Origin: Rubellicoccus peritrichatus
Lineage (GTDB): Bacteria > Verrucomicrobiota > Verrucomicrobiia > Opitutales > Cerasicoccaceae
Assembly (NCBI RefSeq): GCF_033100135.1
Contig: NZ_CP136920.1
Coordinates: forward strand, 5,699,001 to 5,763,000
Reading direction: 5' to 3'
Length of the DNA: 64,000 nucleotides
Shown here: positions 7,246 through 8,328 of the stretch, one piece after another
How positions within the stretch are numbered: the first letter of the stretch is position 1
How the letters are laid out: each line of letters starts with the position of its first letter
Position numbers and translations under genes: made by a program
The notes under the pieces: generated by a model
Database searches by the model: none
The model's input: the letters and a program-made list of their open reading frames with translations, nothing else
What the model was told of the DNA's origin: nothing

Positions 7246-8328
7246 CTATTCTTTGTCCGGGTTTTTGTTACTTAGATTACGAAGGATTCTTTTACTCGTA
7301 TTCGCTGCACTCATCAGGCCGGCGAATAAAATATTACGGTGCTCAGGAATAGATTTTGTCTCACCCGGGGCATCCTCGGGATTGCCTGATATTTCCATAT
7401 GCAAAGATTCATCCTGCTGTTTCTCCTCCGTCTCTATTGTTGATGCAGCAGGTGGTGGCATTGGCTGAGAATTTTTTGCAACAGGCCTTGGTGCACGTGG
7501 CCTTGGAGCCATCGGTTTAGCCCGAGCAGGAGGTGCCACTTTAGGCATAGGAATCTTTAATGCTTCACCTTCATGTTCAACATCCAGCGGTCGAGGCTCT
7601 GCTGGTTCTTGCGATGAGGCACTCCAGGCAGCTTCTTCAAAAAAGTTTTTGGCGACTGTCTGATTAACTGAAGTCATCGCGTTGCCCTCATGCCATCTGG
7701 CATTCTGCATAAAAACACTCACTTGAGAGCCAGAGGTATCTTCTGCAATACTCGAGGGAATTTTTACCAAATCCGAACTCTTGTAATCCCATGTCGATGA
7801 CTTCAAGAAAACACCGACAGTTTTTGCATTGGCATCAGATTCTGTGTTTGATGATTTATCGGCGGGGCTCGATTCCCAATTTGCTTTAGCCAGATAATCT
7901 CGAGCATCTGCCGCTGCAACCTGTTTGCCATTCGCAGCTTCTTGAGCCAAAGAAGCCGACCAGGATATGTTTTGAAAGAAAGCAGTCGTCGATATTTCGT
8001 CTGTAACAACTGGAGCGGACGTCAAAGTAACTTCGGTGTCAGCCTTTGCAATAGAACGGGAAGATTCCGACTCAACAGTTGAAGTTATCGAATTCTCAGA
8101 AGTTTGATTCGGAACAGTACCCCATTTGGCACTGTTGAAAAACTGCTTTGTCAGTAAATCATCCGCTACCCCAGAATGAGATGGCGTATGCGCTAGGGCT
8201 ATTGGTTTGTCTTCAACAGCAACCACAGATGTCGGTTTTTCCACGACAGCATCGACGACACATGCCTTTGAAAGTAACTGCAGTGTTTGCTCTAAACGCT
8301 TATAATGAACTGGTTTCCAACCGGACAT
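7246..8328 (-). CDS. Disordered protein with six [FY]-[FLM]-x4-W repeats (linker-like)
   Basis: A 360-residue protein of unrecognised family. It carries six copies of an aromatic motif [FY]-[FLM]-x4-W at F63-W69, F117-W123, Y145-W151, F174-W180, F206-W212 and F229-W235. The motifs are spaced by 23-54 residues of Ser/Thr/Ala/Asp-rich, apparently disordered sequence; W-S-A-S follows two of them. Residues 258-293 are rich in Pro, Arg and Lys, and the last 30 residues could form an amphipathic helix. Repeated short motifs on a flexible chain are how multivalent scaffolds such as CsoS2 act, so I infer that it binds several copies of a partner, perhaps the globin or V4R proteins, and may be phosphorylated by the cluster kinase. 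Its TAG lies two bases before the globin ATG. Confidence 0.8.
   Translation of the reverse strand: MSGWKPVHYKRLEQTLQLLSKACVVDAVVEKPTSVVAVEDKPIALAHTPSHSGVADDLLTKQFFNSAKWGTVPNQTSENSITSTVESESSRSIAKADTEVTLTSAPVVTDEISTTAFFQNISWSASLAQEAANGKQVAAADARDYLAKANWESSPADKSSNTESDANAKTVGVFLKSSTWDYKSSDLVKIPSSIAEDTSGSQVSVFMQNARWHEGNAMTSVNQTVAKNFFEEAAWSASSQEPAEPRPLDVEHEGEALKIPMPKVAPPARAKPMAPRPRAPRPVAKNSQPMPPPAASTIETEEKQQDESLHMEISGNPEDAPGETKSIPEHRNILFAGLMSAANTSKRILRNLSNKNPDKE

Follow-up and report, generated by a model that had tools for sequence, protein, structure and literature searches.

A predicted disordered protein with six short aromatic motifs in the V4R/bilin-globin cluster of Rubellicoccus peritrichatus: a candidate scaffold related to cyanobacterial Slr0145

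The gene cluster and its motif protein

Between positions 2296 and 10304 of the window (the whole 64,000-nucleotide stretch of Rubellicoccus peritrichatus DNA that was analysed) lies a set of neighbouring bilin, V4R, Fe-S, kinase and HHH genes, which is not a bcs cellulose operon. All are on the minus strand and are transcribed from high to low coordinates, with the HHH protein first and the bilin reductase last:

9600-10304, minus strand, HHH-motif protein, 5' of the Fe-S gene
9146-9619, minus strand, 2Fe-2S protein, cluster member
8387-9085, minus strand, V4R-domain protein (V4R-A, our label), directly 5' of the motif gene
7246-8328, minus strand, motif protein of 360 aa with an ATG start, predicted disordered, six F-F-x4-W type motifs
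6674-7243, minus strand, bilin-type globin (BBAG), Pfam Phycobilisome, directly 3' of the motif gene
5987-6655, minus strand, second V4R-type protein (V4R-B, our label), no Pfam match of its own, V4R fold predicted for a relative
4248-5990, minus strand, Ser/Thr protein kinase, cluster member
3676-4251, minus strand, 191-aa protein without a Pfam or NCBIfam family
2990-3661, minus strand, heme oxygenase, cluster member
2296-3000, minus strand, ferredoxin-dependent bilin reductase, cluster member

The cluster is of the pre-PcyA type described in PMC10151467, whose available text names the globin of such clusters BBAG and does not mention the motif protein. The HHH-motif protein is conserved in six other Opitutales-type clusters, and the 191-aa protein is conserved next to the kinase gene in clusters of Opitutales and Methylococcaceae, with 8 relatives found. 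Within the motif protein, the following features were recognized:

8263-8328, minus strand, N-terminal segment MSGWKPVHYKRLEQTLQLLSKA, with MxxWxxIHxxRxxxFLxxL conserved in Opitutales
8122-8142, minus strand, motif 1, FFNSAKW, aa 63
7960-7980, minus strand, motif 2, FFQNISW, then SAS, aa 117
7876-7896, minus strand, motif 3, YLAKANW, aa 145
7789-7809, minus strand, motif 4, FLKSSTW, aa 174
7693-7713, minus strand, motif 5, FMQNARW, aa 206
7624-7644, minus strand, motif 6, FFEEAAW, then SAS, aa 229
7294-7335, minus strand, C-terminal conserved segment NILFAGLMSAANTS, NxLLxGxxSAARTS in Opitutales relatives

An earlier note on this DNA had described six [FY]-[FLM]-x4-W motifs of strict internal spacing, separated by divergent, low-complexity sequence, with W-S-A-S after two of them. 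A sequence scan of the ORF found the same six copies, and 20,000 shuffles of its composition gave no motif 19,556 times, one motif 439 times and two motifs, the maximum, 5 times. Six of its seven tryptophans lie inside motifs, the seventh being Trp4. The sequence outside the motifs is indeed of low complexity and Pro-rich, and W-S-A-S follows motifs 2 and 6. Distances from the start of one copy to the next are irregular (54, 28, 29, 32 and 23 aa). Since the codons differ among the copies, the array is not a recent DNA repeat.

Long stretches of two motif-protein relatives had pLDDT values below 50 in AlphaFold models, and an N-terminal helix was predicted in two relatives (block pLDDT mostly 62-82); the window protein itself is placed just to the folded side of the Uversky line, which counts against the disorder reading. 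It had no match to any Pfam family at E values up to 1 and no NCBIfam family, the sole NCBIfam match being to a Tim44 model (E=0.0098) far under the cut-off of that model. A search of PDB sequences with the window protein and with a cyanobacterial profile gave no informative match.

Relatives in other bacteria and in cyanobacteria

A plain protein search of 36 genomes with the window ORF returned, besides itself, weak matches only, and relatives were therefore found via the neighbouring genes. BBAG genes are rare in the phylum, occurring in 2 of 387 genomes, one of which is the window's own. The second, from the same order, has the gene order of the window, and where the motif gene would stand it encodes a Pro-rich protein of 390 aa that contains FLAALPW, FLSQLPW and the near-copy ALHALPW. 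At the same place in an Acaryochloris plasmid cluster is a 120-aa protein with EFLEGYNWSG, TFFSQFNWTG and AFFQHFIWEG. A scan with the V4R protein yielded 38 loci, which come from Opitutales, Methylococcaceae, Deltaproteobacteria (a single genome with two loci), Candidatus Sumerlaeia, an unclassified bacterium and Cyanobacteria. Two further loci from Acaryochloris plasmids and that of the window brought the set to 41 loci.

The earlier note had asked for a motif search beside V4R/BBAG genes and had counted homologues lacking the repeats as evidence against its idea. The opposite was found: the ORF directly 3' of V4R-A is a motif protein in 35 of the 41 loci, with strict motifs in 22 (at least two strict copies in 20 loci and one in 2) and looser copies only in 13, the exceptions being loci L028 and L034 and one cyanobacterial branch that has weak L/I-type copies only. 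The 13 looser-copy loci consist of the two from Deltaproteobacteria and eleven from cyanobacteria of Pseudanabaena/Picosynechococcus type, with copies such as RFSAVVW and LIEQIEW; in 9 of 11 the single loose copy was not significant by shuffling, so those assignments rest on position and alignment. The order V4R-A, motif gene, globin, V4R-B was found in all 35 motif loci. Loci L018 and L021 are cut by a contig edge, with the rest of the L018 motif protein on another contig, and for L026 and L042 the motif gene lies elsewhere in the genome. No motif protein was detected in the genomes of the V4R-A loci L028 and L034 at the thresholds used, and in the L028 genome, a single case, the Fe-S gene and the motif gene have been lost together.

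A profile of seven Opitutales and Methylococcaceae relatives, from which the window ORF was left out, found that ORF at E=1.8e-10 among the window ORFs; the next ORF had an E value of 0.24 and the best of 100 shuffles 9.7. The Opitutales relatives have in common an N-terminal MxxWxxIHxxRxxxFL and a C-terminal NxLLxGxxSAARTS. The cyanobacterial members examined are about 80-260 aa long and carry 1-5 motif copies, and most of the 11 that were aligned end in DLxLxDLSDLF. No Pfam or NCBIfam family describes these 11, one of which gave a flavodoxin match at E 0.08.

Several other features were seen beside or within the clusters of relatives. V4R-B of locus L033 (11601-14081) has an acidic repetitive tail of about 600 residues with repeats such as LPDLDTLES. 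Next to the cluster of the relative at L009, the stretch 1704-5550 contains what by eye resembles genes for a PP2C phosphatase, a response regulator and a hybrid histidine kinase, possibly corresponding to the cluster kinase. The Pseudanabaena-type motif proteins (L035-L041 and L032), which have one weak L/I-type motif, begin with a basic, Trp-rich amphipathic segment that could bind membranes, and three genomes of this type contain an additional cluster whose protein has two motifs (L073-L075). One Acaryochloridaceae genome has an isolated motif gene (L071, 3443-3802), away from the V4R cluster of that genome (L042) and a few hundred bases before an apparent plant-type ferredoxin gene.

We then surveyed 291 genomes of the cyanobacterial phylum, in which V4R-A was found in 47, the Fe-S protein in 48 and a match to the motif-protein profile in 41. 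Every one of these 41 genomes has both the V4R-A and the Fe-S gene, no match occurred outside the 47 V4R-A genomes, and in 39 of the 41 the match lies directly 3' of V4R-A. Among the six V4R-A genomes without a profile match, two (G414 and G620) matched a second profile and four (G437, G511, G600 and G664) have a motif ORF, recognized by eye, beside V4R-A, so that, with three methods that differ in stringency, a motif protein is accounted for in 47 of 47. The Fe-S gene and V4R-A co-occur in 47 of 48 genomes, too closely for their links to the motif gene to be told apart.

By gene order, not by the PCC 6803 sequence, the motif gene of cyanobacterial locus L047 is the counterpart of slr0145 in the Synechocystis slr0144-slr0152 "Pap" operon. 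When compared with each other, the cyanobacterial profile and that of Opitutales and Methylococcaceae match along the motif region (probability 87.5, E 3.6e-6 for a single comparison). The two groups thus agree in profile, in the motif itself and in having the gene flanked by the first V4R gene and a globin gene. They differ in that the window protein is longer (360 aa) and has six less regular copies, and the window cluster adds the heme oxygenase and the bilin reductase. The literature searched gives no function for Slr0145. In the available parts of the sources, the slr0144-slr0152 operon is associated with photosystem II assembly (PMC9145668, PMC4853703), the thylakoid membrane is reported as the location of the Slr0144-Slr0149 proteins, and their interactions were validated by affinity pull-down with Slr0149-GFP as bait (PMC9880817), where they are given as a range of names and Slr0145 is not singled out.

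One of the surveyed genomes (G437, locus L116), drawn as a member of the cyanobacterial phylum and possibly from a non-photosynthetic relative of cyanobacteria, has a complete cluster. Its motif protein, Pro-rich like that of the window and 249 aa long, carries four motifs, and a heme oxygenase was recognized in the cluster by eye. A search for a D1/D2/L/M-type reaction-centre gene (PF00124) found none in this genome or in that of the window, which argues that the motif protein is not tied to photosystems.

Motif grammar and specificity

The core of the motif is F or Y followed by F or L, a mostly hydrophobic residue at +4, N or P at +5, and then W; its fullest form is [ST]-V-x-[DE]-F-F-x-x-(hydrophobic)-[NP]-W-x-G. 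Among 66 distinct strict copies, L is enriched 3.9-fold at -5, V or A is found at -3 (V enriched 9.6-fold), and G at +8 is enriched 13.7-fold and present in 39 of 64. Position -4 is S or T in 40 of the 66 copies, and one of S, T, D or N in 44 (0.253 expected, p=1.8e-12), while 31 have D or E at -1. A helix capping box shows this combination of Ser/Thr at -4 and Asp/Glu at -1, and the helical moment of the motif is greater than that of shuffles of the same residues. As judged from these residue preferences, the motif is probably a short Ser/Thr-capped helix that ends in the Trp and folds on binding.

To what extent this grammar is specific was measured with a matrix built from 65 copies and applied to 1,624 ORFs from 46 loci. 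Thirty ORFs scored above 12 bits; all 30 belong to this family, and 10 of them come from outside the training loci. With a matrix trained on cyanobacteria, the ten highest-scoring among 854 ORFs from non-cyanobacterial loci all encoded motif proteins, and the motif ORF of L013 ranked 15th. Among the 127 window ORFs, a matrix from Opitutales and Methylococcaceae without the window placed the window ORF first (19.0 vs 10.6 bits), and the cyanobacteria-trained matrix placed it second (10.6 bits), below a single look-alike, EEYFSSGAWSG, in the 191-aa protein at 3676-4251 (14.4 bits). This look-alike was considered as a copy of the motif family and rejected as chance, because relatives of the 191-aa protein keep the W and the G, not the aromatic pair. 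A comparison of F-type with L/I-type clusters for switch positions gave hints only, namely V4R-B C74 to F and W119 to M.

The literature searched, which did not include the original Pap-operon and BcsHD papers, contained no account of the motif. The remark in the earlier note that no description was known holds to this extent, and needs the correction that the cyanobacterial gene is on record, as uncharacterised slr0145.

Candidate partners and a scaffold role

In structure comparisons, V4R-A of locus L015 was nearest to the MopR/PoxR V4R sensors (Z about 14-15), followed by TRAPP Bet3-type proteins (about 10.5-12) and BcsD (about 8.5-10), and a model containing V4R-B had the same neighbours. 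BcsD is relevant here because it has the fold of V4R-A and is organised by Pro-rich partners: according to the available text of PMC11470070, BcsH and BcsP recruit BcsD into cytoskeletal assemblies, and the record of entry 7zzq describes a BcsH-BcsD "beads-on-a-string" filament. BcsH (CcpAx) and BcsP are thus, like the motif protein, Pro-rich proteins encoded with a protein of V4R/TRAPP-like fold. They belong to another operon and have another partner, the likeness being in the fold of the partner and in Pro-richness.

Tandem neighbours were also modelled with AlphaFold by reading through the stop codons, as V4R-A plus motif protein for L015 and as motif protein plus BBAG plus V4R-B for L013, the output being per-residue confidence alone. 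Both models gave high confidence for the folded domains, with BBAG and V4R-B exceeding 90 over much of their length. The motif stretches were of low confidence and none docked on V4R-A in the L015 model, or on BBAG or V4R-B in the L013 model, both being monomer models with an alignment almost without other rows over these stretches. The confidence of the N-terminal helix was similar in both models, and thus gave no sign of docking on V4R-A. The earlier note had proposed a disordered-chain scaffold for the bilin globin; the multivalent linear motif in that proposal is supported by its retention across phyla, and the globin may be its target, the models pointing neither to nor away from any partner. 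Strict adjacency, co-occurrence and the BcsD precedent make a V4R protein, and V4R-A before V4R-B, the leading candidate for the partner, which we put forward tentatively; the neighbouring globin comes next, with perhaps one chance in a handful or slightly better.

On balance, we think it fairly likely that the window ORF encodes an intrinsically disordered, multivalent scaffold for a complex of V4R, globin and Fe-S proteins, and that it belongs to the Slr0145 family. Since relatives stand in the same bilin/V4R cluster in several bacterial groups including cyanobacteria, such a scaffold would probably be ancient. Each motif would form a short Ser/Thr-capped helix that presents two aromatic residues, one hydrophobic residue and one Trp, and would fold as it docks into a pocket on one of the cluster proteins. 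With two to six copies per chain, several partner molecules could be held together, and the N-terminal helix and the conserved C-terminal segment would probably serve as separate anchors.

Three other readings of the motifs were weighed. They might bind BBAG and gather several pigmented globins, as a non-homologous counterpart of phycobilisome linkers. A globin like those of the phycobilisome family adjoins the motif gene in 35 of 35 motif loci, BBAGs bind bilins (PMC10151467, available text), and the published pull-down used Slr0149-GFP as its bait. Against this stand the tandem model without docking on BBAG, the cyanobacterial two-globin clusters, in which the adjacent globin is of Slr0146 type and BBAG lies further downstream, and the low fluorescence yield for which BBAGs were judged not to be efficient light-harvesting proteins (PMC10151467, same text), so that we regard this reading as doubtful. 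The suggestion in the earlier note of a multisite kinase substrate has lost ground and now seems improbable. Under it, the cluster kinase would phosphorylate the Ser/Thr before or behind each motif and so switch the complex; the window cluster does contain a Ser/Thr kinase, and the pattern at -4 (40 of 66) and -1 (31 of 66) also resembles an acidophilic kinase site. The same pattern is equally that of a helix capping box, so that the -4 Ser/Thr is expected from the helix N-cap; the invariant part of the motif is aromatic, not Ser/Thr; and 17 of the 35 motif loci showed a kinase, the other 18 having none within stretches of varying length, some of which end early. The kinase reading gains some support from the Synechocystis operon, in which SpkG (slr0152) is encoded by the last gene, several operon proteins are phosphoproteins, and loss of SpkG abolishes phosphorylation of Fd5, as given in the accessible part of PMC11863333.

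The third reading, in which the motif stretches are helices that contact the membrane and anchor the cluster proteins to it, would fit aromatic, Trp-rich segments of raised helical moment, the thylakoid location of Slr0144-Slr0149 (PMC9880817, available text) and the basic, Trp-rich amphipathic N-terminal segment seen by eye in the Pseudanabaena-type relatives. The motif, however, has no conserved basic residues, its fixed grammar with N/P before the Trp and G after it fits a protein pocket, and the likely membrane segment of the Pseudanabaena type is separate from its motif; we consider this role very improbable.

Two known systems that resemble the window protein were also considered as families to which it might belong. 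CsoS2, which acts in carboxysome assembly, has repeated short motifs on a disordered chain; no curated family model matches the window protein, and no carboxysome gene was found among the ten cluster proteins scanned. Phycobilisome linkers are likened to it as a possible linker for a globin of the phycobilisome family; no Pfam linker domain was found in the window protein (E values up to 1) or in the 11 cyanobacterial relatives (E values up to 0.1), and the architecture differs. Membership was rejected in both cases.

A bolder extension of the multivalent scaffold, which we offer as a speculation with the odds well against it, is that F-F-x-x-h-[NP]-W is a new linear-motif code, not tied to photosynthesis, that strings V4R and bilin-globin "beads" into a complex of higher order, and that it began as an ancestral linker of phycobiliprotein relatives, passed to cyanobacteria as Slr0145 and was reused in photosystem biogenesis. 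The V4R/BBAG/Fe-S cluster has been proposed as the source of cyanobacterial phycocyanobilin synthesis and of phycobiliprotein relatives (PMC10151467, available text). The motif protein is central to this cluster and would be a candidate for its scaffold; its motif is open to mutation at each residue in turn, also in Synechocystis. The cyanobacterial version of the cluster is linked to photosystem II assembly, and the conserved motif protein is present as well in two genomes in which no reaction-centre gene was detected.
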